Positions 13,321 to 29,275 of a stretch of DNA of 64,000 nt are shown here, in pieces. The DNA comes from Porphyromonas cangingivalis. Its GTDB lineage: Bacteria > Bacteroidota > Bacteroidia > Bacteroidales > Porphyromonadaceae. The translations under genes were made by a program, and so were the position numbers. Below the pieces are notes generated by a model. It had not been told where the DNA came from. It saw nothing but the letters and a program-made list of their open reading frames with translations, and did not search any database. The stretch spans positions 1,612,001 through 1,676,000 of the forward strand of contig NZ_LR134506.1 of assembly GCF_900638305.1 (NCBI RefSeq). The letters run 5' to 3'. Within the stretch, counting starts at the first letter, position 1; every line of letters starts with the position of its first letter.

Positions 13321-14494
13321 ACTTTTTTATTGTATTAGTTGTTTGTATTACCGAAATTGATGAAAAATAAACTCCCACAAATAATAGTATTGTAGAGATA
13401 AGGAATATCCAAATACTATTATCAGAAGGAATAGAATTCTGCATTAGCATTGATATTAATGTCACTAAACGTCTAAAGGCAAATATGACAAAGGTGGAAA
13501 CCATCGTAAAAACAAAAAGAAGGCTAATACAAGAATAGAGATATACAAGAATTGGGTATGAAAATTCTCTCTGATTACATTGTCGAAACTTAGCCCCAAT
13601 CCACAATACTATTTCCGCTATAGCAAAGTAACTTTTATTTCTCAAGTTAGTTATGCCGAAAATGTCGCTAAAAATCCAATATCCATCAAATCGAAATAAT
13701 GGATTCATATTATATATAATAACAATTAAATTGTCAAGTATTATAGCAAAAAGTATATGGTTTGGCATTGTATACAGAAAAGAAAACAGCAAAAGAATTG
13801 TCATTGATATTATTTGAAAATAAAATCCTGCAACATCAATCACAATTCGTTGGCGTCTTGTTGCCATCCATGATCTAGAGACATCAGTGAAAAATACTGG
13901 GAAATAAAGATAAAATCCAAAACCAATTTCTTTTGGGGAAACCTTGTAGCGTTCAGAAGCTACAGCATGCCCCATCTCATGTATAAATATGATTCCAATA
14001 CTTATTACAATATAGAGAAGCACCAAAAACGGATTACTTTTTATTGTAGCGAATAATTCATGGCGATTTACGCAAAATAAATCCCTATGTCGCAATAATA
14101 AAAGAGAAAAAAATGTTGCCATCACAACAACAACAACCTTTGTGTCAAAAAGCGATGACAATCTTTTTAATAGAGTCGTACACCTCTTCTCTTCTAGCCG
14201 AACTAATGTTTTCTTGAATTTTATGTATGCACTTTTGTGGCAAATATGACTCTCCTCTATTGATTCCATCTTTTTTCTAACCAAATCTATATCAGAGTGT
14301 TCTAATCGTATATCGCTAAATTTTTTTGATACACTATGCAGAGTATCTTCGTTTGAAAGCCCCTTAATAATACAAATAATTAGATGTTTCGTAATATCAT
14401 TAACCTGAAAATATCTTCCTTTGTATGATACATTCCAAACACCTTTTTTTTGCTGAGAAACACTAATTTCCCTTTCGTTTTTTGCAGATTCCAT
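13283..14494 (-). CDS. M50-family membrane zinc peptidase with PqqD-like N-terminus
   Basis: This is a 403-residue integral membrane protein. Residues about 15-80 resemble a PqqD-like domain (YKGRYFQVNDITKHL, then CIIKGLSNEDTL). After a first membrane segment (118-135) comes the zinc motif HEMGH (172-176). The third ligand is in NPLFRFDGYW (Asp270), and there are five or more further membrane helices. Such proteins (the YydH type) sit in peptide-modification and bacteriocin loci, where they cut or process the peptide in the membrane. The gene lies downstream of the precursor peptide gene, separated by a 10-bp-stem hairpin. Confidence 0.8.
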   Translation of the reverse strand: MESAKNEREISVSQQKKGVWNVSYKGRYFQVNDITKHLIICIIKGLSNEDTLHSVSKKFSDIRLEHSDIDLVRKKMESIEESHICHKSAYIKFKKTLVRLEEKRCTTLLKRLSSLFDTKVVVVVMATFFSLLLLRHRDLFCVNRHELFATIKSNPFLVLLYIVISIGIIFIHEMGHAVASERYKVSPKEIGFGFYLYFPVFFTDVSRSWMATRRQRIVIDVAGFYFQIISMTILLLFSFLYTMPNHILFAIILDNLIVIIYNMNPLFRFDGYWIFSDIFGITNLRNKSYFAIAEIVLWIGAKFRQCNQREFSYPILVYLYSCISLLFVFTMVSTFVIFAFRRLVTLISMLMQNSIPSDNSIWIFLISTILLFVGVYFSSISVIQTTNTIKKYVLQLRKESSID

Positions 14495-14545
14495 TTTACA
14501 AAAATCTATAAAGAAGTCTACAATCCTTCATTCTATAGTCAATCT

Positions 14546-14575
14546 CTGGAGAGGAGTAGTGTCCCTCCTCTCCAG
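14546..14575 (-). terminator. Stem-loop between precursor gene and processing operon
   Basis: The perfect arms ctggagagga (14546-14555) and tcctctccag (14566-14575) enclose a 10-nt loop. No T-run follows on the minus strand, so it looks like an mRNA-stabilising or attenuating hairpin. That would allow more precursor than enzyme transcript. Confidence 0.55.
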
Positions 14576-14620
14576 GATTGCATAAACTTAGTTAGGGGTT
14601 TAGTAGATCTAACTTATCTT

Positions 14621-14866
14621 TTATAGTGCCAGTGATGGATTGCTCCCCGTACCACCTCCAGAATTGATCTCTGGCTTGACTTTGATGTCTGGCTTGACTT
14701 CGATTGTGCCGCCATTGCCGCCATTGCCGCCGTTACCACCACCATCACCACCATCACCGCCATCGCCACCAGAGCACTTCCTTTCGCAAGATCCCCCTGC
14801 AGCTTCCATTTCGAAACGGTCTTCTAGTTCTTCAAACTTGATTCTTTCAAAATCTGTTTTACTCAT
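14621..14866 (-). CDS. Glycine-repeat precursor peptide (RiPP-like)
   Basis: This is an 81-residue peptide. The acidic leader FEELEDRFEMEAAGG ends in a double glycine, as in secreted peptide precursors. The core starts SCERKCSGG, with two Cys five residues apart. It continues with (GGD)3 and (GGN)3-type repeats, then EVKPDIKVKPEI and a glycine/serine tail ending in PSLAL. The repeat DNA is low in complexity, so its length may vary between strains. It lies directly upstream of the M50 peptidase gene in the same direction and downstream of two operator copies. I know no named family with this core. The precursor role is inferred from leader shape and neighbours. Confidence 0.65.
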   Translation of the reverse strand: MSKTDFERIKFEELEDRFEMEAAGGSCERKCSGGDGGDGGDGGGNGGNGGNGGTIEVKPDIKVKPEINSGGGTGSNPSLAL

Positions 14867-15063
14867 TTTGATTGATTATTTAAGTTATAACTCCTATTCT
14901 TCACTCAAGGATTTTTGTGCCTTTACAGTAAGGTCTGGACTGTTTTGATACCAAAGTAAGCCAACTTTGTTCGTGAGTTGATTTTTGCGATCGACAAGAA
15001 ATTATCGATGCAAATCCGAAGGGCACGCCCTTCTTATTTGAGTTGTATCACACTTTATAATTA

Positions 15064-15834
15064 TCAACAGCGCTTATTGATAGGTTTTACATTTGCAAAT
15101 GTTCTATAACCTTGATTATCTTGACAATACCCATTCGGGTAATTCTGTGTTCTCGGCTTGATTTTCACCCATTCGGGTAATTCTCTTTGGGTTTCTCTGA
15201 ACTGAATATCAAAAGCTAGATAAGCATACTTGAGCATAAACTCATCTAATCCTTCTTTGTAGATAGTGATAGGAATTGTGGTAGATCCGAGATAACTTAT
15301 TCCCTTGGATAGGGGGGTCGCTTGAATATGCAAAGCCCCTAATGTACGCAATAGTTTTTGATCAATTTCAGCCAATAAGACACCTCTATTGTATCGAAAT
15401 ATTGGGCTAATAGCATATAGCATCAAGAGTTTGAAAAGCCTCCCGTTATCTGTATAATTTCGGTTGATTGCAAAACGACCTATATGCCACAAGTGCTTGT
15501 GATCATGGCGTAATTGCTCCAGATCTATGAGATGATCTCCAAAAAGTTTTACCAATGGTATGGTGTGCGGATTTTTATCCCAACAAGCTATACGAATGGC
15601 ACCAATGATATCTCCTTGAGTATTTTTAGCTACGATAATGGAGGAATACTCATAGAATGCCTGTTCTTCTTGTAGTACATGATGATACTCTTCACTACTC
15701 TCACAAGATGAAAGCATTTTTCCTTCGTGGTGCATAAAGTTTTCTTCAACCACAAACTTCGCTAAAGATGCAATTCCTTTTTTATCGATTTGCCATAGCG
15801 AGATGTCGCCTTGATGCGTTATAAATCTATCCAT
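15064..15834 (-). CDS. GNAT-fold acyl synthase (LuxI/FeeM-like)
   Basis: This protein has 256 residues from the ATG at 15834. An ATG at 15879 is rejected because it lies upstream of the -7-like box at 15860-15867. The pattern SSIIVAKNTQGDIIGAIRI, then HIGRFAINRNYTDNGR and LFKLLMLYAI, is the acetyl-CoA-fold signature seen in N-acyl amino acid synthases and, remotely, AHL synthases. The gene is divergent from a LuxR-type regulator with two shared operators between them. A signal-synthase role is inferred. An alternative is acylation of the precursor peptide. Two further operator copies lie inside its 3' coding end, which also carries the promoter region for the precursor gene. Confidence 0.6.
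   Translation of the reverse strand: MDRFITHQGDISLWQIDKKGIASLAKFVVEENFMHHEGKMLSSCESSEEYHHVLQEEQAFYEYSSIIVAKNTQGDIIGAIRIACWDKNPHTIPLVKLFGDHLIDLEQLRHDHKHLWHIGRFAINRNYTDNGRLFKLLMLYAISPIFRYNRGVLLAEIDQKLLRTLGALHIQATPLSKGISYLGSTTIPITIYKEGLDEFMLKYAYLAFDIQFRETQRELPEWVKIKPRTQNYPNGYCQDNQGYRTFANVKPINKRC
15097..15104 (-). promoter_or_regulatory. -7-like box for the precursor gene
   Basis: On the minus strand it reads AACATTTG (consensus TAnnTTTG, one mismatch). It lies exactly 23 bp from the operator at 15128-15144, the same spacing as at the GNAT and ThiF promoters. Confidence 0.45.
15128..15144. promoter_or_regulatory. Operator copy 1 (ACCC-N3-C-GGGT)
   Basis: tacccattcgggtaatt. It is 23 bp upstream of the box at 15097-15104, inside the 3' end of the GNAT gene. 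Confidence 0.6.
15166..15182. promoter_or_regulatory. Operator copy 2
   Basis: cacccattcgggtaatt, 38 bp from copy 1. It may be the distal site of a pair controlling the precursor promoter. Confidence 0.55.
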
Positions 15835-15859
15835 ATATTGATTATATATTATTTTGATG

Positions 15860-15867
15860 CAAAGCTC
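15860..15867 (-). promoter_or_regulatory. -7-like box of the GNAT gene
   Basis: On the minus strand it reads GAGCTTTG. It lies 23 bp from operator copy 3 and about 25 bp before the ATG at 15834, which decides the start of that gene. Confidence 0.5.
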
Positions 15868-15890
15868 GTGATGAAGCATTTGGGACGCAA

Positions 15891-15907
15891 TACCCGAACG
15901 GGTGATT
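15891..15907. promoter_or_regulatory. Operator copy 3
   Basis: tacccgaacgggtgatt, in the divergent region between the GNAT gene and the LuxR-type gene. Confidence 0.6.
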
Positions 15908-15939
15908 TTAGTTCAATAAGGTTCAACTATCATGTTTTT

Positions 15940-15956
15940 CACCCTTTCGGGTAATA
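15940..15956. promoter_or_regulatory. Operator copy 4
   Basis: caccctttcgggtaata, 49 bp from copy 3 and 16 bp before the regulator's -7 box. It may serve the regulator's own promoter, or be the distal site for the GNAT promoter. Confidence 0.55.
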
Positions 15957-15972
15957 AATCCTTATATATTGG

Positions 15973-15980
15973 TATATTTG
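15973..15980 (+). promoter_or_regulatory. -7 box of the LuxR-type gene
   Basis: TATATTTG matches TAnnTTTG exactly and supports the ATG at 16007 over the one at 15932. Confidence 0.55.
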
Positions 15981-16006
15981 TATCACAGAGCAATAAAAGC
16001 TGGTAT

Positions 16007-16774
16007 ATGAAAGAAAATGACAGTATTCAGTTCCAATTACCGAGTGATGTCCGACCACAAATAGAGGAGTCGGAGTATCATACCCTGCAACCATATATTG
16101 ATTCTGTTAAGGCATTTGCACGAGGAGCCTATAAATCACTCTACATTATAGATTACTATCGCATGAACTTCCTTTACGTATGCGACAATCCGTTATTCTT
16201 ATGTGATGAAGCTGTAGAAGATGTCCTTGAGGAAGGATACAACTTTTATCTGAAACATGTTCCCGAGCCGGATCTCCTTTTTCTACAGCAAGTAAATCGT
16301 GCTGGGTTTGAGTTCTTTCGTGATATAGCTGTGCAAGACAGAGCGAAGTATAGTATATCCTACAACTTTCATCTATACGCAAAGGAACCTCGAGAAAGTA
16401 TGCTAATCAATCATCAAATCACACCGCTTAAACTTGATGCGAGAGGAAATATCTGGCTTGCTCTATGCGTTGTCTCATTAGCCCCCTCCACCAAAGTTGG
16501 AGTTGCGTATATTTCCTCGTGTAATCCTGAAAACAGATGGATTTTTAAGCCTCAATTAGGAAGATGGAAGCAAATAGAACCGATAGAGCTTTCTTTAAAT
16601 GAAAAAGCCGTGATTCGTTTATCGAACCAAGGCTTATCAGTTAGTGAAATTGCGCAACAGATCAATAGATCTGAAGATTCTGTGAAAGGCTATCGTAAAA
16701 GCCTATTTGCTAAGCTCGAAGTAAGCAACATTACAGAAGCAATCTCGATAGCAACTCACCGTAAGTTAATTTAA
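16007..16774 (+). CDS. LuxR-family transcriptional regulator
   Basis: This protein has 255 residues from the ATG at 16007. The N-terminal half (SLYIIDYYRMNFLYVCDN, ISYNFHLYAKE) is the PAS-like sensory domain found in many Bacteroidetes LuxR-type regulators; no AHL-binding domain was recognised. The C-terminal 60 residues form the LuxR HTH (LSLNEKAVIRLSNQGLSVSE, then IAQQINRSEDSVKGYRKS). It is divergent from the GNAT gene and overlaps the end of the convergent ThiF gene by 9 bp. It is the obvious candidate to bind the five operators, probably in response to the product of the GNAT enzyme. Confidence 0.8.
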   Translation: MKENDSIQFQLPSDVRPQIEESEYHTLQPYIDSVKAFARGAYKSLYIIDYYRMNFLYVCDNPLFLCDEAVEDVLEEGYNFYLKHVPEPDLLFLQQVNRAGFEFFRDIAVQDRAKYSISYNFHLYAKEPRESMLINHQITPLKLDARGNIWLALCVVSLAPSTKVGVAYISSCNPENRWIFKPQLGRWKQIEPIELSLNEKAVIRLSNQGLSVSEIAQQINRSEDSVKGYRKSLFAKLEVSNITEAISIATHRKLI

Positions 16775-17530
16775 GTCATCGCAATCGGAGTAGTAATAGA
16801 ACTTCGGGAAAGTCTTGACAAACTCTCCTCGTACCAATCTCAGTATAATGGCAGTACACAAACCTCCTGCTAACGAAGATGCGATACTTAATTGTGGAGG
16901 TGGCAACAGGCTCTCTTCTTGTTCATATTTCTGAACTATCTCTTCTATCCAAATTTTTGGACGGACCCAATAATTGAAGTAGTCCGTCAGATGTTTTACT
17001 GCTTTCTTTTCAAAACCTATTATACTTTCGTTTTCGGAAAGTAAACTATCAAGTTTTTGTCCATTGGGAGCAATAACCATTACAGCACTTGCCCAACCAA
17101 TATTGTAGGGGTGTAACACATACATCCCTTTTTCTGTACATAGGTTGTCAAAAATGAATGGGATGTCACTCTTGAAATCTAAAGCATTGATTGCGACATC
17201 ATGTTCATTGATAATATCTTCTATGTTGTTTTCGTCAATATATTTAGGGATCGCCACTATCTTAGCCAATGGGTTAATCCCTAATAGACGCTCCTTAAGA
17301 GCCTCTACTTTGGGACGTCCAATATCACTAAATAGATAATTCTGTCGATTGAGATTACTCTCCTCCACGACATCACCATCAACAATAGTAAGATGCTCAA
17401 AGCCTAAACGCAATAATGTTTCTGCAATGTTACTTCCGATACCCGCACCTCCGAGCAAAACTCGATAATCTTTTATCTTCTTTTGGTCATTTTCGGACAG
17501 ATATATCCGATTTCGTTCATATCTTTTCAT
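16766..17530 (-). CDS. ThiF/E1-like adenylyltransferase
   Basis: This 254-residue enzyme of the ThiF/MoeB/E1 superfamily activates a carboxylate with ATP. The nucleotide loop is GGAGIGSN (about 27-34), followed by VDGDVVEESNLNRQ (about 50-63) with the conserved Asp and Arg, and NALDFKSD (about 136). The Cys-x-x-Cys zinc pairs of MoeB are absent. The gene has its own promoter with one operator copy, and it is convergent with the regulator. It may activate a peptide or amino-acid carboxylate used by the pathway. The substrate is unknown. Confidence 0.8.
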   Translation of the reverse strand: MKRYERNRIYLSENDQKKIKDYRVLLGGAGIGSNIAETLLRLGFEHLTIVDGDVVEESNLNRQNYLFSDIGRPKVEALKERLLGINPLAKIVAIPKYIDENNIEDIINEHDVAINALDFKSDIPFIFDNLCTEKGMYVLHPYNIGWASAVMVIAPNGQKLDSLLSENESIIGFEKKAVKHLTDYFNYWVRPKIWIEEIVQKYEQEESLLPPPQLSIASSLAGGLCTAIILRLVRGEFVKTFPKFYYYSDCDDLN

Positions 17531-17558
17531 AGAAATCTCTACTTAATAGTTACGATTA

Positions 17559-17566
17559 CAAAGTTC
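17559..17566 (-). promoter_or_regulatory. -7-like box of the ThiF gene
   Basis: GAACTTTG on the minus strand, 23 bp from the operator at 17590-17606 and 28 bp upstream of the start codon. Confidence 0.5.
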
Positions 17567-17589
17567 AGACCTTATTTGAACACTCACAA

Positions 17590-17606
17590 TACCCAAACGG
17601 GTAATT
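17590..17606. promoter_or_regulatory. Operator copy 5
   Basis: tacccaaacgggtaatt, upstream of the ThiF gene. Confidence 0.6.
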
Positions 17607-17674
17607 TTTATTGGGGAGCATACTTTTTCTACAAATAAAATCAGAGTTTTTTTGGTTAGATGATAGGAATAAGA

Positions 17675-17764
17675 TACCTTTGCAACGAGCAGTTAAGCGT
17701 TCTTTGAGTTGTAGCAGGACGTAGAGATAAAGTGCAGTTCGCTCGTTTCCAAATCGTTCCCCTT
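17675..17764. repeat. Right-end repeat R1 of element 1
   Basis: It starts with TACCTTTGC and ends in ccaaatcgttcccctt about 90 bp later. The stretch 27054-27141 has the same plan (TACCTTTGC ... atccgttcccct) and matching bases in the last 30 bp. The sequence tacctttgc also resembles the core of CTnDOT attachment sites (GTANNTTTGC). Confidence 0.45.
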
Positions 17765-17828
17765 GGACTAATTGACAGCCAGCCAATAGCTCGTAATCAA
17801 TAGGTTAGTGCTCACAAACATCCTTCTA

Positions 17829-17986
17829 TGCGGAAATATGGGAGTTAGGAGTAAGGGGGAACAAGAAAACCCTATCTACCTGATTAACAACATCTCTTTC
17901 GTTTCAGCGCATTGATTTTCATCACGATAAAAGGCAAAAAAGGCAGTTTTAGGAGCGAGTTTAGTTTCTTATCCGTTCCCTTTTGT
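17829..17986. repeat. Left-end repeat copy L2
   Basis: It is related to 5203-5359 (see there). It ends with atccgttccc at 17971-17980, which recurs at 27131-27140 near the right end. Confidence 0.6.
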
Positions 17987-18007
17987 TCTTTTTGCAGGGG
18001 TAAGCAA

Positions 18008-18063
18008 AGTGATAATCAAGCAATGCTTGAAAGGCACTATAACCCCATTCTAACAAAGAGATA
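18008..18063 (+). pseudogene. 3' remnant of HTH protein 2
   Basis: The last codons read AMLERHYNPILTKR and then stop, nearly the same as the end of the intact gene at 8898-9206. It is fused to the left-end repeat and marks the deletion junction of element 2. Confidence 0.8.
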
Positions 18064-18066
18064 GTA

Positions 18067-18309
18067 TGCTAGGAAGAAAAAGACAAATCCTTTTAGGCGA
18101 GCTTAAACGTCTTAGAGACTATGAAACTAAGCCCAAGAGACCTAAGCTTGCCTTTGATTGTGATGAGGACGATGAGAATAGGATGTCCAATTTTAGCAAT
18201 TAGCAGAATAAGCGAACGAGGGGCGACAATCTCGGGCTATGTGGAGCGAGTACTCAGAGAGCATCTCGAGCAGTACAAAGACGATGTAGAAGTATGGAGG
18301 AAACTCTGA
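18067..18309 (+). pseudogene. Broken DUF3408-like conjugation gene
   Basis: Frame 1 from the ATG at 18067 gives MLGRKRQILLGELKRLRDYE and stops after SNFSN near 18200. The other frame continues with ISGYVERVLREHLEQYKDD to 18309, which resembles the C-terminus of DUF3408 proteins found next to mob genes in Bacteroides elements. One frameshift near 18185-18200 would join them. Confidence 0.5.
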
Positions 18310-18414
18310 TGCCTTGCGTGCTTAGCACTCAAAGCCCATCTGAACACCTGCACTCAATGGGTGCAAGTGTTCAGATAAGGGATATACCGAGTTTTTTTCG
18401 GTAGCAAGGTGTGT

Positions 18415-18492
18415 CTTTGTACCACAAATTGTCATTTGTCGCACAAAGACCCTTGCCCCGATAGGGGTATCAATCACGCCGAAGTCGTGATT
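18415..18492. other. oriT-like hairpin region, copy 2
   Basis: It has the same plan as 9454-9531. Long hairpin 18415-18448 (loop tgtc instead of taac), a cccc/gggg stem, then aatcac (18472-18477) with gtgatt (18487-18492) just before the mob gene. Confidence 0.5.
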
Positions 18493-18509
18493 AAAGAACA
18501 ACGAAACCA

Positions 18510-18941
18510 ATGAAAAGAAGGGATACAGACAAGTCAGACGGCAGATGTGCCACCTGCCCACGATGGGACAGATGGCACATCAGAATACCAAAGCCCGAAG
18601 ACCAGCAGAAGCTCATCGAGTTATACCGTAAGTCGGGAGCGAAAACCAAGAGCCACTACGTCAGAGGACGGCTCTTGAATCAATCCTTTAAGGTCATCAC
18701 AGAGGATAAATCCTCGGAGCCGGACCTAAGAGAGCTGAGCAACATCCTCACTAAATTGAGAATCATCGGTGTGAGTTACAACGAAGCCGTCAAGACACTC
18801 AACAGCTACCACACGGTTAAAACAGCCCAAAGAATGATACACCGGCTCGAAAGATACTCCGCTGCTATCATTAGACTACAGGTACAAGCGATACAGCTGA
18901 CAATGGCATTTGATAGTCGAGTTAAACAGACTACCAAGTAA
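18510..18941 (+). CDS. Small mobilization protein (MobA-like, copy 2)
   Basis: This 143-residue protein is a close paralogue of the protein at 9540 (CATCPRWDRWHIRIPKPEDQ, then a helical tail KTLNSYHTVKTAQRM). It overlaps the end of the convergent recombinase gene by 11 bp, so here too cargo abuts the 3' end of the mob gene. As in element 1 no relaxase follows. Confidence 0.65.
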   Translation: MKRRDTDKSDGRCATCPRWDRWHIRIPKPEDQQKLIELYRKSGAKTKSHYVRGRLLNQSFKVITEDKSSEPDLRELSNILTKLRIIGVSYNEAVKTLNSYHTVKTAQRMIHRLERYSAAIIRLQVQAIQLTMAFDSRVKQTTK

Positions 18942-19734
18942 TGACCTTATCCACAATCGCCTGCTGTTCACTGGCGGTACGGCGTAAATAGATACGCGTA
19001 GTTTCGATGCTTTCATGCCCCATCAGGTCAGCCAGTAGAGCTATATCGTTGAACGCTTCTAAAAAATTCTTGGCATACCGATGACGGAAGGAGTGTGGGT
19101 GCATTACTTTGGGATTGATGCCCCATTGATGGGCGAAGCGTTGTAATTTATGCCGAATAGCTCTTGGGGTTAGCTGCCTGCCTTGCTTGTCTAGGAATAA
19201 ATGCCCACACGCTATGCTGGATCGCTTCAACCACGTCTCCGCCTCTATGCGGAGATCATGAGGGATGAAAATCCGACGAACCTTCCCTCCCTTGGTGTAT
19301 AGGTCTAAGTAGCCCTCCCTTATATGCTCAGTCTTGAATTGTACTAATTCGCTCACTCTAGCTCCCGTTGCACCTAAGAAGCGAACGAGAAAATACCACA
19401 CTCCCTCCTCCTCAGCTTTGAGCTTTGCCTTGAGATATTGATAATCCGCATTGCTTATCACATTCTCGAGATAGGTCCTTTGTTGTATCTTGAGTGATTT
19501 CAGCCGAAGGTGAGGCTTCCCGATGAATACTAAGAATTTGTTGAGTGCTTGAATGCGTAGATTGACTGTCTTGGGCTTAAATTGCTCTATCTGTTCCGCC
19601 TTGTAAAGCAAAAGGGTTTCCCGATTGAAGCTGGAATACTTCTTTTCAAAATCCTCCACCGCGTAGAGGTAGGCAGTAATCGTATTGTCCGATAAGCCTT
19701 CTTCCCTCAGTTGTTGCCTAAATGATTTTACCAT
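18931..19734 (-). CDS. Tyrosine recombinase (probable DNA invertase of the RM locus)
   Basis: This is a XerC/D-like recombinase of 267 residues from the ATG at 19734 (an upstream TTG at 19767 is less likely). It has a short SAM-like N-terminal domain and a full set of catalytic residues: Arg in TGARVSEL, Lys in TKGGKVR, HSFRH, GH in LMGHES and Tyr in TTRIYLRR. It differs from the two element integrases by having the first Arg. Its start lies only 49 bp from the left inverted repeat (19783-19811) of the invertible segment, the usual position of an invertase. It most likely flips 19783-21944. Confidence 0.85.
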   Translation of the reverse strand: MVKSFRQQLREEGLSDNTITAYLYAVEDFEKKYSSFNRETLLLYKAEQIEQFKPKTVNLRIQALNKFLVFIGKPHLRLKSLKIQQRTYLENVISNADYQYLKAKLKAEEEGVWYFLVRFLGATGARVSELVQFKTEHIREGYLDLYTKGGKVRRIFIPHDLRIEAETWLKRSSIACGHLFLDKQGRQLTPRAIRHKLQRFAHQWGINPKVMHPHSFRHRYAKNFLEAFNDIALLADLMGHESIETTRIYLRRTASEQQAIVDKVITW

Positions 19735-19782
19735 ATTACTTGATTTTGTATCTAAGTAATATCGCAAAAAGCTCGCCGATTT

Positions 19783-19811
19783 ACGCTATTATAGGCAACC
19801 CACCGTATCAG
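19783..19811. repeat. Left 29-bp inverted repeat of the invertible segment
   Basis: It is a perfect inverted copy of 21916-21944. It codes in frame for AIIGNPPYQ, the catalytic motif IV of the N6-adenine methylase. Confidence 0.95.
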
Positions 19812-20825
19812 CTTACTGTGGCGAAAAAGGAAACAGAAAATGGGCAAAAGGCTGTTATAAATATATTTCAACATTTCCAACTGCTTGCCGATAACCTTGC
19901 ACCTCGCTTTTCTTCGCTTATCTATCCTGCTGGTCGGTGGATTCATCGCTCGGGCAAGGGCTTGGCTGATTTTGGATACAAGCAGATCAACGATGCCCGC
20001 CTCGCCCGTCTGCACTTCTACCCTGACTCTACGGATATTTTTCAAGACGTTGGTATAGCCGATGGACTTTCTATTGTCTTTAAGGATAGGGCGAAGAGCA
20101 AGGGAGGCTTTATCTATGCTTATACTAAGGCAGGGGAAACGATAGAAGTACAGATGTCCAACCCTGGTGAGGTTTTGATGGCTCTCGACCCGATGGCAGA
20201 AAAGATTAGCCAAAAGATACAGACCTTCGTTCGGGACAGATTTAATTACATTTTCAACTCGGTATTGCCCCGTAGCCTCTTTTCTATAGAGAGCGATTTT
20301 GTGGAAAACAACCCCACATTGGTGCGCCCCTATAAAGAGGGAGAGAATCTTAGCAACGACGAGATAAAACTCTTTACCAACGATAAAGCAGGTAAGGCAG
20401 GACGTGCTACTTGGTATGTAACCAATAAAAATGTTATCAAAACAGGCGGGGAGCAGCTGTCTCGCTGGAAAGTGGTGGTATCTAGTGCGAATGCTGGAGG
20501 ACAAAAGCGTAGCAACCAAATTGCCGTCCTCGACAATAGGTCTGCTTTTGGTCGCTCTCGAGTCGCTCTCAAAACCTTTGAGACAGAGAGCGAGGCTAGA
20601 AACTTCTATGTCTATTGCCAAACGGACTTCATCCGATACGCTTTCCTCCTCACAGATGAAGCACTAACATCTTTAGGGAAACTTGTTCCCGATTTGTTGG
20701 ACTATACCGATGATAATGGTCTGATTGATTACACTCAAGACGTAAATGCTCAGCTCTATAACATATTTGGGATAGATGAAGAGATGCAGGCGATTATCAA
20801 ACATGCTCTTCAAGAAAGGAATTAG
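19783..20825 (+). pseudogene. Silent methylase C-terminus with alternative target recognition domain
   Basis: This is an open frame of about 347 codons that begins at the inverted repeat with AIIGNPPYQ and has no start codon of its own that fits a protein. It continues as a methylase tail and recognition domain (PAGRWIHRSGKGLADFG, LSRWKVVVSSANAGGQ) and ends with DYTQDVNAQLYNIFG. The active tail on the other strand ends with the related DWTQSVTAIDRQLYRKYS. It is not a decayed gene but a stored cassette. Inversion of 19783-21944 would join it in frame to the methylase head and silence the present tail. Confidence 0.85.
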
Positions 20826-20841
20826 CTAATCCTGTAAATGG

Positions 20842-20883
20842 AACGCCCGTATATGTCACTTTGTGCTGGCATATACGGGCGTT
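20842..20883. terminator. Bidirectional terminator between the two recognition-domain cassettes
   Basis: The 14-bp perfect arms aacgcccgtatatg (20842-20855) and catatacgggcgtt (20870-20883) lie between the two convergent tails. It serves whichever tail is expressed, in both orientations. Confidence 0.8.
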
Positions 20884-20907
20884 TTCACAATTCGGGAGCC
20901 GTGGGCA

Positions 20908-23900
20908 TTACTCCATTGCTCGGATCTTCTCCTCGATGAAGGCAATCTCGCCCTCGTCTAAGCTGTATTTACGATAGAGCTGGCGGTCGATGGCTGTCAC
21001 ACTCTGCGTCCAGTCGATGTCCGCCTCCTCGGTAAAGTCTTGCAGTGGAATTAAGCTGAAAACATTCTGATTAACCTGCATTGTGCCATGTCCCAAGAAT
21101 AAGAGAAAGCGGAAGAAGTTCGTATATATATAAGTTGAACAATTGTTCATGTATTCCTCCTTGTCAAAAGGACCAATTAACAAGAATGTCTCAGTGCATA
21201 TCTCATTGGGGTACGATTTAATATGCTCTGGTGGAATTACGGCGTCAGACGAGTAAGTAGTAGTGAAAAACAACTTGTGAGACTTCAATGCATTGTACTT
21301 ATCTGAGATGTCAGTAGGCTTTATATAACCAACGAGACGTTTAGCTCCACCTTTTTTCCCCTTAACACCAAACACTTTGATAGATCCTTCGAAAGGCTCA
21401 AAGGATAACTGCAAATTGGGATATTTGTCGGGGGTGTTGAACAAATCCTTTCTGAGACCAAAAGGACGTGTTTTCGAAAGTATGGTAGAAAAGCGTACAA
21501 CGTCTTGGCGACAAACTTTCTTTAAGATGGGTAATACTCTAACATCTCTGACTACAAAGTCGCAAAAGTCATTTTGAAGATGTACAATATCTTGGACTTC
21601 TTGACCTTCCATCGTAACATAGGTATATTCTATTCCCTTGGCTTTCTTGTTCTGATCCCACCTGAAATAGCAAATACCTCCATCATTATGAGCAGTTGGA
21701 AAAATAAATCGGTCGTTTCTATAATCCTTTATATAAGAAAGTCTGCTATCGCTTTTCATGGCTTCGAGAAACGTTCGTAATTCAGTTCTTCCTCCTACCA
21801 TCCATTTTGAAGGAATAATGAGACTCACGAATTTTCCTATACTGAAAGCAATATCTGCAAATCTATGGTATATGGGAGCTGCTGCATCATTAGCTCCTGC
21901 TCCACCATCCATCACCTGATACGGTGGGTTGCCTATAATAGCGTCTATCTTCATGTTTTCGTCATTGTTGATTTTCCAAAAGCGTTTGCCCGAGCGTAGC
22001 ATATTTACCACACTGTCGGGCTGGCTTGTAATGTTCTCAATGAGGTCGGGGTAGTACTCGGCATGCACCGCTACATCGCGGAAGCCACGCAGGGTGCGCA
22101 TCGTGATGTAGCGTGCCATAGGCGTCTTGCAGACTACGAAGATATTCTCCTCGAGCGTTCTATCCCAAAGCATGAGTGCCGTGGCACGATTGACCTCTCC
22201 ATATCGCTCCCGAGCCTCCTCTATTCGAGTGCGGTAAATGTTATAGGCAGCATAGAGCGGATAGAGACCACTCTTGGAGTTAATCTCTAGGATGACGCTC
22301 CGAGGGCGAAACACCTCCGCCGTAACTCCCTTGTGCTCGATATACCGTGGCAAATCGAGGGGCGTGGTAAAGTCTTCGTTCATGAAGCAATAGCCCCCAA
22401 GGCTATCGCCAAGGTGCATATTGACCACACGCCAAGGCGTAAGTACGGTTTCCTTATCGGGATTGCGGAAGGTAGCGAAGATACTCGCTAGGCGTGCTAT
22501 GCGCTCCTCGATGGTAAACTTATCCGCCATGCGAGCCATCTCACGAATACGTTTGCCTGCCTCACGGAAGATGTCAGGGTCGTAGTATCGCTTAAACTTG
22601 CGAAACACTTGCTTGGTCACGCCCCGAGGCATAAACTCCTGCCAAGACTGCTCATCTACGAGGTTGGCAAAGTTGTCGATGGTTAGCTCCTTGTCTTCGT
22701 CTTTCATTTCCGCCCCATAGAGCATGAGCGGCATACGAATAGAGATACCTCTGAGGATAGAGATAGCCTCTCGACGCTGATCGCCCTTGGCTTTGAGTTC
22801 CTCCAATCGGTGTTGCTCCTCGGGGGTAAGGTCTTTCTTTTTCTTCTTCTCGAGGCGTTCTTTCTCCTCGTATTGCTCATTGGTCAGCCCTTGGCGATTG
22901 ATATCGATATCGCCTACCTTGGGCATGGCTTTCGTTTTGCCAATGATACCTTTGAGAGCGTCAAACTCCTTGAGGTCTACCTCGGTCAGTTTGAGTAGCT
23001 CATCGTTATAGAGAGCTCCGTTTTCAAAGCCATCCTGCACAACCTTCTCAATCTGCGCTCGTTTAAGCTGAGCAAGCATGGTCTCTACCTTGTATTGCTT
23101 CATCTGGCTTCCTTCAATAGCAATGATGGGGCAGAAGTTGAGGAAGTCGCCCAAGATTTTGCGGTCTCCCTCGCTTTGCTTGCCTGCCTTGTGTGACACT
23201 TTTGCTGCCTCAGCAAGGACACGCAGGGTACGGTCGGGAGCAAAGTCGAAGGCGTAGCAGTCGGTCTTCATACGCCCATTATGGGTATAGGGCGTTTGCA
23301 CACGGAAGATCGTTTGCATATAGCCTGCTGCAGAGGTGCAGTAAGCGCCTGCCATCATAAACACGCCTGTCCAAGGCTTGACGCTCACCCCCGTAGTCAA
23401 TCGTCCGCACGAGAGGGTAATGGTATAGGTCTCGTCAGGGTCTTTCCCGATAGCCTTGTTGACCAGCTCTAGAGCATCACGGCTTTCCTCCTCGTCATCG
23501 CCATCGCCAGCCACATTGACCACTCGGAAGAGCCCAAAAACAGGGTGCTCACTCAGCTTGCGACTCAGTGCCTTGGCCGCCTTGACGCCAGGCAAAATCC
23601 AAAGGGTGTGACGGAATATCTGTCGAAACGCCTCATTGGAATAAGGATAGAGCGAATCCTCGGCATCCGTAGTGAGCAGAGCGAGGAAGCGATCTATATC
23701 TCCCTCGTGAACAAAGCTACCGTCCTCTTTAGTGCGAAAGAACTCTCGGAAGTTGAAGGCTTTCTCTTCATCACTATACTCGCTCATCAGACGACCAAGG
23801 TCGTAGGTGTAGATATGTATCGCAGGTAGGGAGGCATAGGGATTGGTATCGCCCAAATGATTGATTTCCCAATCGATCTTGGCTTGTTGCTCCATGACAT

Positions 23901-24890
23901 AGTCCCATGTAAAGACCTCGCCCTCCTTGTGATCGTCGAGCAGGTTGAAGGGTGTCCCCGATAGGCGTAGCGTCTTTGTCTCTTTACCAATAAGGAGCTC
24001 AAGCACCGCCTTGCCAAGTTCTGTTTGCGTTCCTTCGTGGGCTTCGTCCACAATGACCAAGTCCCAAGCGGTGGAGAAGATCTCATTGTTTTTGTCAAAC
24101 TTCCCCCCACCTCTCGCGAACCACGCATGTCCTGCATCGAGGCAAAGTAAACATACCTCTTGCCTTGTGTCGCTAATCTCTGAAGCGAAGCAAAGCTCTC
24201 GCCCTTATTGTGTGAACCATAATGCCATTCGGGACGGTCGTAAAAAGTCTTACCAAAATCTTCGAACCAACTCGCATCTACCACAGGGCGGTGTGTGATG
24301 ATGATGGTACGCTGCGCCTCCATCTCTCGGGCAACACGCAGGGCACAGAGCGTCTTACCAAAACGCATCTTAGCATTCCATAGCATTTGATTGCCTCGAC
24401 GGAACTGCTTGAGCGTACGCTCGACAGCGTCCTTTTGCTCGGGGCGTAAGATAATAGGATTATCGGCAGCAGTAACTTCGCTCGCCTTCAGGCTTTCTTT
24501 ACCCTCTTTGATAGCAGCAATAGCTCGCTTGACAGTTTCCAAATCGCATGCATACCATTCGGTAGCACCCTTAAACTCTTTACGCTTAACCCCGGAACGC
24601 TCCAGAACCTTATGCACCTCTTTGTCGTTGAAGGAGCAGATACTCCCCCTTTGGATATATATGGTAAGCTCTGTGTGGAGCAGTTCATAACTGATGCCAG
24701 CCGTTTTGGTATACTGATCTATACGGGCTCGTGCGGCATCATTAAGGGCAGGACTATTGGGCTCTGTAGATGCCGAACCAACATCTCCTAATGTTGTTTC
24801 GCCTATCTTGAGGCTGCCTTCGTGTTGACTATCTGAGATAGCAAACACATAAATGAGGCGAGGCTTGAGCGAAGAATCAAAGGTTGCCAT
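20908..24890 (-). CDS. Type ISP-like restriction-modification enzyme (GIY-YIG / helicase / methylase / TRD), interrupted by a frameshift
   Basis: Two overlapping frames (start 24890, and the frame ending at 20908) form one protein of about 1,325 residues when one base is added at the C6 run 24103-24108. In order: a GIY-YIG/T5orf172-like nuclease (LIYVFAISD ... LKIGET, residues 12-32); an SF2 helicase with Q-motif LRPEQKDAV (about 148), MRFGKT (175-180), VDEAHEG, LSGTPFN and TTGVSVKPWTG; a spacer with EKKKKKDLTPEE; an N6-adenine methylase with LEINSKSGLYPLYAAY and IIGNPPYQ; then the recognition domain ending at 20908. The order nuclease-helicase-methylase-recognition domain is that of Type ISP enzymes, though those usually have an Mrr nuclease. 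The tail from 21944 down is exchangeable by inversion. Confidence 0.8.
21916..21944. repeat. Right 29-bp inverted repeat of the invertible segment
   Basis: It is the exact inverted copy of 19783-19811, inside the active methylase gene at the NPPY codons. Confidence 0.95.
24103..24108. repeat. C6/G6 tract at the frameshift
   Basis: On the coding strand the run reads gtggggggaag. With seven G the frame continues as EVGGKFDKNNE into the DEAH helicase part. With six G the nuclease-helicase head is cut off from the rest. Confidence 0.75.
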
Positions 24891-24892
24891 GG

Positions 24893-25897
24893 TTATATGT
24901 TGTGTTTAATAAGATCTATAAATCGAATCTTGCGATTGTTTTTGCCTGTCTTGGGATCTTTGCAACCCCACTCACGAATGAGACAGTGAGCGCCATTGTG
25001 CCCTTTGAATGTTTCATTCTGACATCCTGGGCAAAGGACAGTACGCTCGACCTCTTCGAATAGGTTCTGCTCTATAACAACTTCGTTATGTTTACAACTA
25101 TTCGGAATAACTCCACGAAGGCCGTCCATCTGAAAGACATTCCACGCAATAATGTAGGCAATATATTTTATGGAGCGAAGCTCGGGTTGCTTACCAAATT
25201 TTGCGGTGTAATACTCAATGAAAGTCATCAGTAAGGCTTCTCTTGCAAGCAAGAGATTGTCCCCCTGCCACTCATAGGCATAAATGTTTTTATAAGCCTC
25301 TTGCGCCATCTTGAGCCACTCCCCAGAGCTATTTGTATTTTCCGAAACGACTCGCAGCTTTCTGTCGAGCATGCCGATGCGTTGTGGTATAGGAATAAAC
25401 TCTCCTGTCGTAGCATCATAACGACTTACGATATAAGGAGCTTCTCCACAGGTTATTTCCATACGAGTCGAGCGGACATAGTCTTTCCATGTTTTTCCCT
25501 CGGGGAACACAATAGGTTCAGTGGTGGCTGTCCATGTTTTCGTCTCATTGTTTTCTTGGTTGAAAACATCTTTACGTCCAAACCAAGCCTCATCAATCAG
25601 ATTGTTCTGGGCATTACAAATCCACGATGGGGTAAATACCTCTGCCTTATCTTTGGTACGCCCTATCTGCTCTGCTCGAGATTTGAGCACCCGTGGTTGT
25701 ATGATTGACCCTCGTTCGCCTGTAATACAAGCGACAGTAATGGGAGAATAATATCCATATTCCGCTCCTAGAGGCTCATAGTTATCTGTAGCCCAGAAGA
25801 TATTATTTCCTGTGGTGTGATCTCGAAGTAGCTCCGTGAGCAGCTCCTCCGATTGATTCCGCAAATCGTTTTCGCTAATATCTATATTGGACCTCAT
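24893..25897 (-). CDS. Methylase-associated subunit of the RM locus
   Basis: This protein has about 334 residues from the ATG at 25897 (a GTG at 25903 would overlap the upstream stop). The stretch TKDKAEVFTPSWICNAQNNL has the VFTP motif seen at the start of N6-adenine methylase domains. A four-Cys zinc-like group is near the C-terminus (CPGCQNETFKGHNGAHC). It is 2 bp upstream of the large RM gene and just after the DUF1016 gene, so the three form one operon. It may provide the SAM-binding front of the methylase or a regulatory subunit. No full catalytic motif set was seen. Confidence 0.6.
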   Translation of the reverse strand: MRSNIDISENDLRNQSEELLTELLRDHTTGNNIFWATDNYEPLGAEYGYYSPITVACITGERGSIIQPRVLKSRAEQIGRTKDKAEVFTPSWICNAQNNLIDEAWFGRKDVFNQENNETKTWTATTEPIVFPEGKTWKDYVRSTRMEITCGEAPYIVSRYDATTGEFIPIPQRIGMLDRKLRVVSENTNSSGEWLKMAQEAYKNIYAYEWQGDNLLLAREALLMTFIEYYTAKFGKQPELRSIKYIAYIIAWNVFQMDGLRGVIPNSCKHNEVVIEQNLFEEVERTVLCPGCQNETFKGHNGAHCLIREWGCKDPKTGKNNRKIRFIDLIKHNI

Positions 25898-25899
25898 AT

Positions 25900-26946
25900 T
25901 CACTTGCTTGTGTTCTCAAATTCTGCAACCCACTCTTTTACTTTCTCCTGCAATAGAGCTTTGTCTGGGAGGTATAGTTGATAAGCGGAAGCATAGATGT
26001 TAGCATCCTTTGGGAGCGTGAGCTCTACCAATGCATCATTTTTGTTCTCGCATAGCAGGATGCCTATTGTAGGGCTTTCAAATTCTTGTCTGACATAGCG
26101 GTCATAGTAATTGACATACATTTGCATCTGCCCTAAATCTTGGTGAGAGAGCTCGCCTATCTTCAAATCAATCAGTACATAGCACCGCAATAGCCTATTG
26201 TAAAATACCAGGTCTACATAAAAGTGCTTCTCTTCAAACGTGAAACGCTTTTGCCTTGCCTCAAAAAGGAAGCCTTTTCCAAGTTCGAGCAAGAACTGCT
26301 GCATTTTACCGATGATAGCGTGTTCAAGTTTGCTCTCTGAATAAACCACATTAGACTTCAGACCCAAGAATTCCAAAGTAATCGGGTCTTTGATGATATC
26401 TTCAGGCTTACTTATGATTTGTCCTTCTTGTGCGAGGCGCATAACGCCTTCTTTGTCTCGGCTTAAAGCTAATCTTTCGTACAGGCTACTCCCAATCTGT
26501 CTTGACAGTTGACGTTTCGACCATTGCTGTTGCGTGCATTCTATTTCGTAGAACCGTCGGGCATCGAGATTGTCTACTCGCATCAAAAGCAAATAATGAG
26601 ACCAAGATAGGGAGAAGTTGGGTGTACTATCTTCAATTTGACAACCAGTGGCTGTCAAATTGCTATAGGCTAAATAAAATTGTCTGATTTGTCGCAAGTT
26701 TGAATAGCTCCACCCTATGCCAAAATGTTTAGTTAATTTAGCAGAAAGGGATTGTAGTACCTGCTTACCGTATTGAGCTCTTTCTTCGCCCCGCAACTCC
26801 TCTTCAAAGATGTATTGCCCAATACGATACTTGGTATATACCTCTGTGAGGTTAATTGACGTGGCGATTCGTGCCCGACTTTCTTCTATGAGTCGTGCAA
26901 TTTTAAGGAATAATTCCTCTGTGTTTGTTCTTCGTTCTAAGCTCAT
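25900..26946 (-). CDS. DUF1016 / YhcG-family PD-(D/E)XK nuclease
   Basis: This is a 348-residue protein. The N-terminal DUF1016 helical domain (TSINLTEVYTKYRIGQYIFE, LTKHFGIGWSYSNLRQIRQF) is followed by a C-terminal PD-(D/E)XK nuclease domain (about 195-340; FYVDLVFYNRLLRCYVLIDL and K, then GILLCENKND). Proteins of this family occur in defence islands and beside RM systems. It is first in the RM operon. The -7 box TACCTTTG (26952-26959) lies so close to the ATG that the mRNA may be leaderless. Confidence 0.85.
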   Translation of the reverse strand: MSLERRTNTEELFLKIARLIEESRARIATSINLTEVYTKYRIGQYIFEEELRGEERAQYGKQVLQSLSAKLTKHFGIGWSYSNLRQIRQFYLAYSNLTATGCQIEDSTPNFSLSWSHYLLLMRVDNLDARRFYEIECTQQQWSKRQLSRQIGSSLYERLALSRDKEGVMRLAQEGQIISKPEDIIKDPITLEFLGLKSNVVYSESKLEHAIIGKMQQFLLELGKGFLFEARQKRFTFEEKHFYVDLVFYNRLLRCYVLIDLKIGELSHQDLGQMQMYVNYYDRYVRQEFESPTIGILLCENKNDALVELTLPKDANIYASAYQLYLPDKALLQEKVKEWVAEFENTSK

Positions 26947-26951
26947 ATCTA

Positions 26952-26959
26952 CAAAGGTA
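26952..26959 (-). promoter_or_regulatory. -7 box of the RM operon
   Basis: TACCTTTG on the minus strand, 5 bp from the start codon at 26946. The expected transcription start falls on or next to the ATG. Confidence 0.5.
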
Positions 26960-27053
26960 CAACATCAAGAAGTTAATAACGAAAGATTTAGAGAATTATT
27001 GAACAGATGCAACGATTTTCTTTGATTTCAGCCGTTTTTCATCGGATAATCAG

Positions 27054-27141
27054 TACCTTTGCGAGTAAGAAGTGAGGGATACTTATAAAATTGCAAAATC
27101 AAGAAACAAGAAGCACCTTGCTCATTTTCTATCCGTTCCCC
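27054..27141. repeat. Right-end repeat R2 of element 2
   Basis: It starts with gtacctttgc, which fits the CTnDOT-type core GTANNTTTGC, and ends with ttctatccgttcccct. It has the same plan as 17675-17764. A 9-bp-stem hairpin (atccggaga / tctccggat, 27207-27233) follows in gene-free DNA. Confidence 0.4.
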
Positions 27142-27380
27142 TCAGCCGAGTAGATACGTCACTATCTACTTAATATCAAACCATTAGCTCTCTACAATCC
27201 GATTTTATCCGGAGACACAGGAGCTCTCCGGATGTCTCGATAAGGGATGACAGAGGCTATTGTTCACGAAAGTTTTTCGATACGAAGTACCGTCCTATCA
27301 TCTTGCGTCCACTAAGAAAAGTTCAGAAAACCTCCGAAAAAGGTAGTCTGACTTGTTTTTGAATATCCAGGAACTTTTCG

Positions 27381-27584
27381 GCAAACACCGAAAAAAGGTG
27401 ATCGTCAGCCTAAAAAACTCATTGTCTATCTTTTTTCTTGCCCCTCTACGAAAAAAGGATTACGTTGTGAACGACAGGGTTGAGTACCAACGATGGAAGC
27501 CCATGCCTTTTTGTCAGGAGGGAAAAAGGTTGAGGTTATTTTGATGGGCTTCACAATTTTGAATAACATAAAAACTTTACAATC
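27381..27584 (+). promoter_or_regulatory. Conserved 5' leader, copy 1
   Basis: It is related over its length to 29069-29275. The block 27465-27530 is identical to 29156-29221 (66 bp). It can be read in frame as a short peptide ending in RLF-stop in both copies. It is either a long regulated leader or a leader peptide. Confidence 0.5.
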
Positions 27585-28640
27585 ATGAAAACGAAATTCA
27601 TTCAACCTCTGATCTGGGCACTTGCTTTTGCATTGGCTCTGCCAGCTTGTGACAAAGACAACGGCACAGAGCCTGACGATCCTTACACCCCACCCGCAGA
27701 GGGAAAGGTATTTATGCCTGTCCTTGTGCATAAAGTGGACATGGAGAAGGTAAAAGAAACAGAAAAAGCCCGGGGGGGACACTTAGACAAAATGGTACCT
27801 GCAGATCTATCGAAAGATAGAGACTACGACACCTATACCTTCAAATACGAAGGCAAAGAGGTCGAGGAAATAAAATATGAGGTGCAGACACAAGACAAGA
27901 CCTTGCTGATGGCTAAGGTGAAAGTGAGCTCCAACTCAGGGGTGGAAGAGATGAACAATCTACTCAAAAAGAAGGGTTTCAATGATGATCACATCTTGGC
28001 AAAAATGCTGAAATCGGACCTCACGAGAGAGAGCGAGGACGACCTTTTCGTCTGCAAGACACAAGGCGATGACCCCGGCAAATGGTTTAATTTTGAACAA
28101 TACGAGAAACAAAGAAAGGCGATGCCAACCATCAAAAATCTCAACGAGGGCTGGTACGATTTCATGAAGAATCAAGCATTCAAATTAGCCCAGGTACGGA
28201 ATTTTGAGATTGAAGACAATAATGGCCAACTACTGGAAGAGAAGAAAAAATCATACGGGAAATATGAGGGTCAGATCATCTTTGCAAAGTTCCGTCCGAA
28301 CGAGAAATACGGGTCGCAGATCCTAAGAGGGTACTTCTTCGACTGGGATGATGAAAAGAGTGCTGACGAGGCCGGCTACATCAATGAGATCATCTTCATC
28401 TATACCGACCCTGCGTTGGGTCATTATAAAGACCCGAGACACGATCTGTCGATACCAACAAGAGAGCTACTTGCCCTCCTTAAGAAAGGAGGATTTGAGT
28501 TTGACAAGAATGACAGAAATATGCTCTTCTTCAAACGAAATGATTCAAGCAAAACGCTGAGCTATGTGCTGAGATCAAGAGGATTTGACGATGTCGAAGA
28601 TGGACGAGAAATATTCGCCATGAACCTCATCGGAGAATAA
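27585..28640 (+). CDS. Lipoprotein of a tandem pair (copy 1)
   Basis: This is a 351-residue lipoprotein with a lipobox at ALALPAC, then an acidic/proline linker (EPDDPYTPPAEGK). I recognise no named domain. Conserved patches shared with the neighbour at 29276 are FMPVL, LLKKxGFNDDHIL, QRKxMPTIKxLN, ILRGYFF, GYINEIIFIYTDPALG and LLALLKKxGF. The pair probably arose by duplication together with about 200 bp of upstream DNA. A terminator follows at 28705. Confidence 0.75.
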   Translation: MKTKFIQPLIWALAFALALPACDKDNGTEPDDPYTPPAEGKVFMPVLVHKVDMEKVKETEKARGGHLDKMVPADLSKDRDYDTYTFKYEGKEVEEIKYEVQTQDKTLLMAKVKVSSNSGVEEMNNLLKKKGFNDDHILAKMLKSDLTRESEDDLFVCKTQGDDPGKWFNFEQYEKQRKAMPTIKNLNEGWYDFMKNQAFKLAQVRNFEIEDNNGQLLEEKKKSYGKYEGQIIFAKFRPNEKYGSQILRGYFFDWDDEKSADEAGYINEIIFIYTDPALGHYKDPRHDLSIPTRELLALLKKGGFEFDKNDRNMLFFKRNDSSKTLSYVLRSRGFDDVEDGREIFAMNLIGE

Positions 28641-28704
28641 AAGTTAGTAAACTTAATGATTGGGTATTCCTCCATGCCCATACGTAATAGACAAAGAGAC
28701 AAAG

Positions 28705-28742
28705 GACACCCTCGACTTTCACGTCGAGCGGTGTCTTTTTCC
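28705..28742 (+). terminator. Terminator after lipoprotein copy 1
   Basis: Stem gacacc-ctcgac / gtcgag-cggtgtc with one bulged base, followed by a T-run. Confidence 0.75.
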
Positions 28743-28861
28743 TTTATGGTAGGCGTCCGATCCGCGAGCGAACTCAATCATCACGACTACCGGATCACCC
28801 TTGACTCATTACGGACGAACACAAGTCGCTGCGGGTATTCTTCCGAAAAAGCACAAACCCG

Positions 28862-28926
28862 AAAAAAGTCGTTAAGATCGATAGCGAAGGTCGTTAAGAT
28901 CGATGACGAAAGTCGTTAAACTTGAT
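28862..28926. repeat. Dispersed triple 22-bp repeat, copy 1
   Basis: Three units of the type gtcgttaagatcgatgacga in a row. Related copies are at 37171, 43690 and 55854. This copy is the most diverged. Confidence 0.75.
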
Positions 28927-29068
28927 TTTGACCATCGAACGAGGTTATCAGTCGATAAGTCAGCTCACAATTTTTCTCTGACTATCACACCGAAAGCCGA
29001 CAAAGAGAGTCACACTCATAGGTACAATGGACAACACTGACGGTAGTGTCCGAAAAGAGTGGAGTATG

Positions 29069-29275
29069 CGAACACCAAGAAAAAAGGTGATTATCAGCCC
29101 CAAAAACTCATTTCTATCCTTTTTTTTCTTGCCCCTCCACGAAAAAAGGACTACATTGTGAACGACAGGGTTGAGTACCAACGATGGAAGCCCATGCCTT
29201 TTTGTCAGGAGGGAAAAAGGTCGAGATTATTTTGAGGGGCTTCACGATTTTGAATAACATAAAAACTCTACGATT
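29069..29275 (+). promoter_or_regulatory. Conserved 5' leader, copy 2
   Basis: It is the partner of 27381-27584 (see there). Confidence 0.5.

Follow-up and report, generated by a model that had tools for sequence, protein, structure and literature searches.

How could a restriction enzyme that carries its nuclease, helicase, methylase and recognition parts in a single chain exchange one DNA specificity for another? The question is raised by a 64,000-nucleotide (nt) stretch of the Porphyromonas cangingivalis genome (NCBI RefSeq assembly GCF_900638305.1, contig NZ_LR134506.1, positions 1,612,001 to 1,676,000 of the forward strand; hereafter, the window), where two convergent C-terminal tails of such an enzyme lie between the arms of an exact inverted repeat, next to a tyrosine recombinase gene. 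The reading of this locus in which we place considerable confidence is that of an inversion switch with two positions, set in a single-chain enzyme with GIY-YIG-like, superfamily 2 helicase and N6-adenine methylase parts. The parts of the candidate switch are the following, with the evidence in parentheses.

18931-19734, minus strand: tyrosine recombinase of the hsdS-inverting family, with an ATG start (Phage_integrase 1.3e-23, motifs, neighbors, tree)
19782-20825, plus strand: silent tail B, the remainder of the methylase domain and a recognition domain, with no head (identity to head-joined tails of relatives)
19783-19811, plus strand: left copy of the 29-bp repeat, coding for AIIGNPPYQ (repeat search and letter check)
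20842-20883, no strand: hairpin between the convergent tails, a possible bidirectional terminator (folding energy)
20908-21948, minus strand: tail A, joined to the head, with an Eco57I domain (identity to relatives' tails and Pfam scan)
21916-21944, minus strand: right copy of the 29-bp repeat, coding for AIIGNPPYQ (repeat search and letter check)
21949-24108, minus strand: enzyme head, with the DEAH helicase part, a middle region and what we take to be the methylase motifs that precede NPPY (open reading frames, Pfam, alignment, tblastn)
23787-24890, minus strand: enzyme N-terminal part, GIY-YIG-like (T5orf172) and helicase Walker A parts (T5orf172 4.7e-4, ResIII 8.1e-7)
24087-24108, minus strand: break in the reading frame of the enzyme as assembled (tblastn with the intact relative L017 changes frame there)

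The exact 29-bp inverted copy was put forward in the original prediction and was confirmed letter by letter, as was the in-frame coding of AIIGNPPYQ by both arms; the repeat sits within 34-nt arms that match at 94%, and each arm opens into a convergent frame, of 346 and 347 codons, compared with about 345 in the prediction. A 27-nt part of the repeat occurs twice in the window, with no occurrence expected from shuffles. When an 18-nt part was sought in the whole genome with up to three mismatches, both arms were recovered as exact matches together with a single site with three mismatches, which is the chance level because the backward control likewise gave one; the 25-nt common repeat had no match in viral_contigs. 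Given the codon usage of the head, independent double coding of AIIGNPPYQ with identical letters has a P of ~3e-4, and in 53 open reading frames of relatives (duplicates included), the median difference from the repeat codons is 7 of 27 nt, the nearest (L017) differing by 2. The identity of the arms appears to reflect neither chance nor mere constraint on the protein sequence. Inversion of 19783-21944 in silico changes the length of the frame from 1050 to 1052 codons, with tail B at its end, and moves tail A to the silent place, joining the silent tail in frame as had been proposed; the product reads ...KIDAIIGNPPYQLTVAKK... and continues to where tail B ends.

With 23-25% identity, tails A and B are distant homologs that presumably read different DNA sequences. 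Tail B resembles head-joined tails of relatives, with 60-61% identity in the loci L022-L025 and 54-55% in L068, and its mismatches to L024 amount to 0.30, 0.23 and 0.63 at the three codon positions, an excess of change at the third; tail A is 48% identical to the tail in L036 and about 48-49% identical to those in L118-L120 and L125. The shared bidirectional terminator that had been suggested between the tails is supported by a strong hairpin (-38.2 kcal/mol, z -6.2) and weakened by its short T-run and by the consensus terminator scan, among the listed sites of which the hairpin does not appear; Rfam had no match over 16700-28000. The GIY-YIG label derives from a weak T5orf172 match (4.7e-4), and among six full-length relatives scanned at E 0.01, T5orf172 was found in one (L033, in one chain with ResIII and Eco57I) and not in the other five. 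The nuclease-like and methylase domains, which a Type IIG enzyme carries in one chain, are split by a frame break in the window; PADLOC matches the enzyme to MTase_II (4.6e-43) and REase_MTase_IIG (1.2e-39).

The switch appears to use a joint, NPPY, that the enzyme family already exchanges, because pairs with similar heads have dissimilar tails and because tails travel apart from heads. Within an alignment of 45 enzymes (A1), 61 pairs have heads that are more than 75% identical, and the tails of 40 of these pairs are less than 45% identical; 32 of the 40, which draw on 26 sequences and are not independent, keep 80% identity or more over the 15 residues that lead up to NPPY and reach no more than 55% over the 15 that follow NPPYQ, the medians over the 40 pairs being 93% and 33%, respectively. 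The mean identity to the window is 0.54 before the joint and 0.28 after it. As for the movement of tails, L123, with a Bacteroidales head, carries a tail that is 54% like the one in the Streptococcus locus L077, and the tail in L124 is 71% like that in L024.

Second tails are rare in this family. All tails were used as tblastn queries against 69 loci, 51 of them full length and 43 of these with at least 1.5 kb downstream, and no second tail beyond a remnant was found among the 51 full-length relatives. More than one tail stretch was present in six of the 69 subjects, namely, the window, three cuts of a Porphyromonas loveana locus, L022 with a remnant and L040 with a 30-residue antisense match. 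Each of 14 further Bacteroidales genomes has one tail, plus a remnant in L123, and the G017 genome encodes an intact enzyme with one tail and has no recombinase match. The short tail-end remnants that lie downstream of the working tail (L022, 12453-12614, and L123, 5213-5455) are perhaps scars of earlier tail exchange.

The locus of P. loveana DSM 28520 (L019, with L018 and L091 as further cuts) matches the window in layout, with a head and its joined tail, a second tail that converges on the first, and the recombinase. The P. loveana head is 97% identical (residues 1-609), the recombinase is 87% identical and a 33-bp repeat lies at the codons equivalent to those of the window's repeat. The DNA identity is 84% over 18778-19810 and 89.7% over 22235-27213 of the window, and, outside the surroundings of the joints and the final ~150 nt of tail A, the tails cannot be aligned; judging from such unalignable tails amid well conserved flanks, the tails appear to turn over much faster than the remainder of the locus.

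The recombinase contains GARVSEL, HSFRH, GHES and TRIY, presumably the expected catalytic motifs. In the frame that runs from TTG 19767, the likeliest start is the ATG at 19734, residue 12, given that a stop precedes the equivalent ATG in P. loveana; the recombinase is adjacent to the left repeat, as predicted, but most likely at a distance of 48 rather than 49 bp. Relatives of this recombinase were detected at E 1e-40 in six of the 393 genomes of the order search, its own included, and the genus search added G011. Frames with Methylase_S, the Type I specificity domain, neighbor the recombinase in all six other genomes (G011, G137, G293, G323, G326 and G329; the loci in G293 and G137 lie at contig ends), and annotated restriction subunit S genes adjoin it in the four plasmid records examined of 15 matching. 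Overall, 10 of the 11 other recombinase relatives examined adjoin Type I specificity genes, a count that leaves out L089 (G010, a 30-residue match), L098 (36% over 43 residues) and 11 of the 15 plasmid records. In a tree of 13 recombinases, the window and P. loveana pair together (support 90/97) and nine of the window kind split from four of the Xer type (100/100), the internal order being weak. Across the recombinase start (19726-19769) there is an inverted repeat around ATATTACTT/AAGTAATAT, mostly kept in P. loveana, that could be an operator or a hairpin.

Where would this recombinase act? The repeats of the hsdS loci share a core, GATAAC-N4-ATTAT (GATAACNNNNATTAT), which is exact in eight of 10 recombinase loci (L095 and L130 lack it); 14 enzyme loci free of the recombinase (158,992 bp) contain no exact instance of this core and seven with at most one mismatch. 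A matrix made from 10 exact instances in hsdS loci was scored over 18901-27000 (16,158 positions) and yields a predicted site at each arm, the two ranks not being independent because the arms have the right half-site in common.

21934-21949, minus strand: predicted head-arm core GATAG-ACGCTA-TTATA (matrix rank 1 of 16,158)
19778-19793, plus strand: predicted silent-arm core GATTT-ACGCTA-TTATA (matrix rank 21 of 16,158)

The fitted 6-bp spacer, ACGCTA, forms the first six bases of the 29-bp repeat, at its outer edge. For tyrosine recombinases, only the spacer and the inner part of the repeat need to match, and a spacer in this position is what this rule leads one to expect. Because the matrix places the spacer at the outer edge, the crossover probably occurs at ACGCTA, a few codons upstream of NPPY rather than inside the NPPY codons; this would refine the earlier placement of the crossover inside the catalytic motif.

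Under the switch reading, the adjacent hsdS-type tyrosine recombinase would exchange strands at the core, that is, at two short half-sites around ACGCTA; the flip of 19783-21944 would release tail A and attach tail B in frame; the methylase motifs ahead of the joint would remain and the recognition domain would change. The original prediction that inversion swaps the recognition domain is favored by the architecture, the frame-keeping exchange after NPPY, the recombinase of an inversion family and the layout in P. loveana; that inversion occurs, and that this recombinase acts at this locus, is what we infer.

Several points weigh against the switch. The inverted orientation was not seen in any data, with one genome per species (the window and one P. 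loveana assembly), and in both assemblies, the head is joined to the tail with the family-like C-terminus. Tail A is joined to the head and tail B is headless, as proposed, but the head itself is split: the enzyme is not one frame, the GIY-YIG/Walker A part (23787-24890) being separated from the rest (20908-24060) by the break at 24087-24108, which falls between Walker A and DEAH, and relatives have intact copies. The P. loveana enzyme is broken too, with ~95 codons lost before NPPY and the tail out of frame. The core was spotted by eye in the comparison of repeats, prior to testing; 2 and 3 of its 11 positions are mismatched in the arms, and the head arm is outside the top eight when the matrix scans the entire 64-kb window. 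The similarity of the whole repeat to hsdS repeats exceeds that of shuffles in just one of 21 cases, so that the fit is confined to the short core. The recombinase of L097 (75% identical; an IMG/VR contig) adjoins a DnaG-like primase, without such repeats, the longest exact inverted repeat found in that stretch being 16 nt. Finally, going by the title of one report (PMC6620402), recombination at the pneumococcal spnIII hsdS locus reportedly requires none of the site-specific recombinases known there, so that linkage to a recombinase is not proof of its action.

The deletion in P. loveana deserves a closer look. Its junction (L019, 9813-9834) is a near-palindrome, GCCTATAATATCTATTATAGGC, that fits the core with the spacer TATCTA, compared with ACGCTA in the silent arm. 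Among 17,358 positions scored with the core matrix, the head junction, read on the opposite strand, comes third and the silent arm 24th. The unequal spacers might lock the switch in this species. The junction reads as a half-site from the head codons fused onto the half-site of the arm; the ordinary alternative is a 4-bp microhomology deletion. Evenly balanced, in our judgment, between true and false is a more specific proposal, that a Type I hsdS invertase was captured by an unrelated single-chain restriction enzyme, in which a GATAA-N6-TTAT core, embedded in the codons directly ahead of methylase motif IV, would have made a slow exchange joint reversible, as a switch between two specificities; the P. 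loveana deletion would be a mis-fired reaction and a footprint of recombinase activity. The data also suggest a portable core site for the hsdS-invertase family.

The alternative that survives best, although we regard it as somewhat unlikely, is that the locus is a relic of a once functional switch, with the enzyme dead in both known genomes and the repeat left over. The frame break at 24087-24108 in the window speaks for it, as does P. loveana, where ~95 codons and the frame are lost before NPPY and the arms no longer share the full spacer. However, the window retains both tails, an open downstream head frame, the recombinase and the full identity of the 29-bp arms, the breaks in the two species differ in kind, and the same picture would result from a phase-off state or an error in assembly. 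Either of these, or decay, may lie behind the break in the window; the frame downstream of the break keeps the methylase and tail A (1050 codons). Given the break in this assembly, the enzyme is at present probably switched off, or limited to modification via a restart.

It is improbable that the inversion is an on/off or attenuation switch rather than a specificity switch, with tail B yielding an inactive enzyme: each of the two assemblies shows a single head-joined tail and tail B shares just 23-25% identity with tail A, but tail B is 54-61% identical to the sole tails of the relatives L022-L025 and L068 and shows coding constraint. More improbable still is an origin of the repeat by ordinary homologous exchange or partial tail duplication, with the recombinase as a passenger integrase, because, although exchange at NPPY is also seen in relatives without a linked recombinase, a MobC-like gene lies nearby and L097 puts the recombinase family in another context, the same three-part layout occurs in two species with different tails, the recombinase relatives accompany duplicated specificity genes and the predicted core coincides with the outer edge of the repeat. 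If the preferred reading, an inversion switch of specificity, is correct, the nuclease and the methylase would change specificity together, in one step. Methylase motif IV is the joint where this widespread enzyme family exchanges recognition domains.

Two genes lie upstream of the enzyme.

24893-25903, minus strand: operon companion protein, PADLOC MTase_II 6.9e-120 (PADLOC and neighbor survey)
25900-26946, minus strand: YhcG/DUF1016 PDDEXK protein, which also occurs at the P. loveana locus (Pfam, neighbor survey, DNA comparison)

A homolog of the companion is directly upstream of the enzyme in 32 of the 49 full-length relatives that have at least 1 kb upstream. The companion contains AEVFTP and EITCGEAPY, which we take to be motif X-like and motif I-like methylase motifs, respectively, and no NPPY; perhaps it is a second, non-catalytic methylase-like subunit. 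Elsewhere in the window, 9965-17530 encodes a small Gly-Asp-repeat peptide (14621-14866), a ThiF-like protein (16766-17530), a membrane metalloprotease-like protein (13283-14494) and a TonB-type receptor, and looks like a modified-peptide cluster, ThiF being assigned by the Pfam scan and the remaining names by reading the sequence only. Tandem paralogs of 351 and 355 amino acids, lipoprotein-like by reading, occupy 27585-30343.

How does this locus compare with known systems? In the Type ISP enzymes LlaGI and LlaBIII, the nuclease, helicase, methylase and recognition parts follow in this order in one chain and the nuclease is Mrr-like; the enzyme described here shares the order but has a GIY-YIG-like nuclease. 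The 'Type ISP-like' label of the original prediction does not extend to membership, which finds no support: the Pfam profiles Type_ISP_C and ISP_coupler (PF18135, PF22240) had no match at E 1 in the genome and none in hmmscans of the locus and its relatives, and the enzyme profile found no relative at E 0.01 among solved structures, the best being the RadD helicase (E 0.12).

The inverting Type I systems combine duplicated hsdS genes, inverted repeats and a recombinase, and a passage of one report names P. gingivalis among species noted ad hoc (PMC7394358). The likeness lies in inverted repeats within coding sequence, a convergent silent copy, a recombinase of the same family and the change of the recognition domain; the difference is that a separate specificity subunit is swapped there, whereas the enzyme described here would swap the C-terminal part of its single chain. 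In intact relatives, the chain that includes the tail also holds the nuclease-like, helicase and methylase parts.

The nearest published parallel is a split methylase gene of the bacteriophage exclusion (BREX) systems. PglX acts within multi-gene BREX, with neither a nuclease nor a helicase in the same chain, in which it differs from the enzyme here, and inversion of pglX is known. A portion of one report describes a full and a partial pglX flanking an integrase in Lactobacillus rhamnosus, the two pglX features of strain GG lying on opposite strands (PMC6256098), so that a single-chain methylase with a split gene and an integrase is found there as well; PglX is described, in part of another, as an adenine methylase whose single chain includes a recognition domain (PMC12707154), and a section of a third reports phase variation of brxX through a homopolymeric tract (PMC6326788). 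In domain movement (DOMO), recombination likewise relocates recognition domains, in the S genes of Type I and Type IIG systems, which there are separate S subunits; in a passage of their report, the authors state that it is not known to them whether the recombination is site-specific or homologous (PMC3077401). The view that no such switch was known for a single-chain enzyme stands to the extent that no published inversion of a single-chain nuclease-helicase-methylase was found in the open-licence literature searched, and is weakened by the split pglX with its integrase. Inversion switching of specificity is itself already known, and what appears to be new is the setting: if the preferred reading is right, recombinase-driven switching would extend from the S subunits of Type I systems, and from BREX pglX, to a self-contained nuclease-helicase-methylase enzyme.
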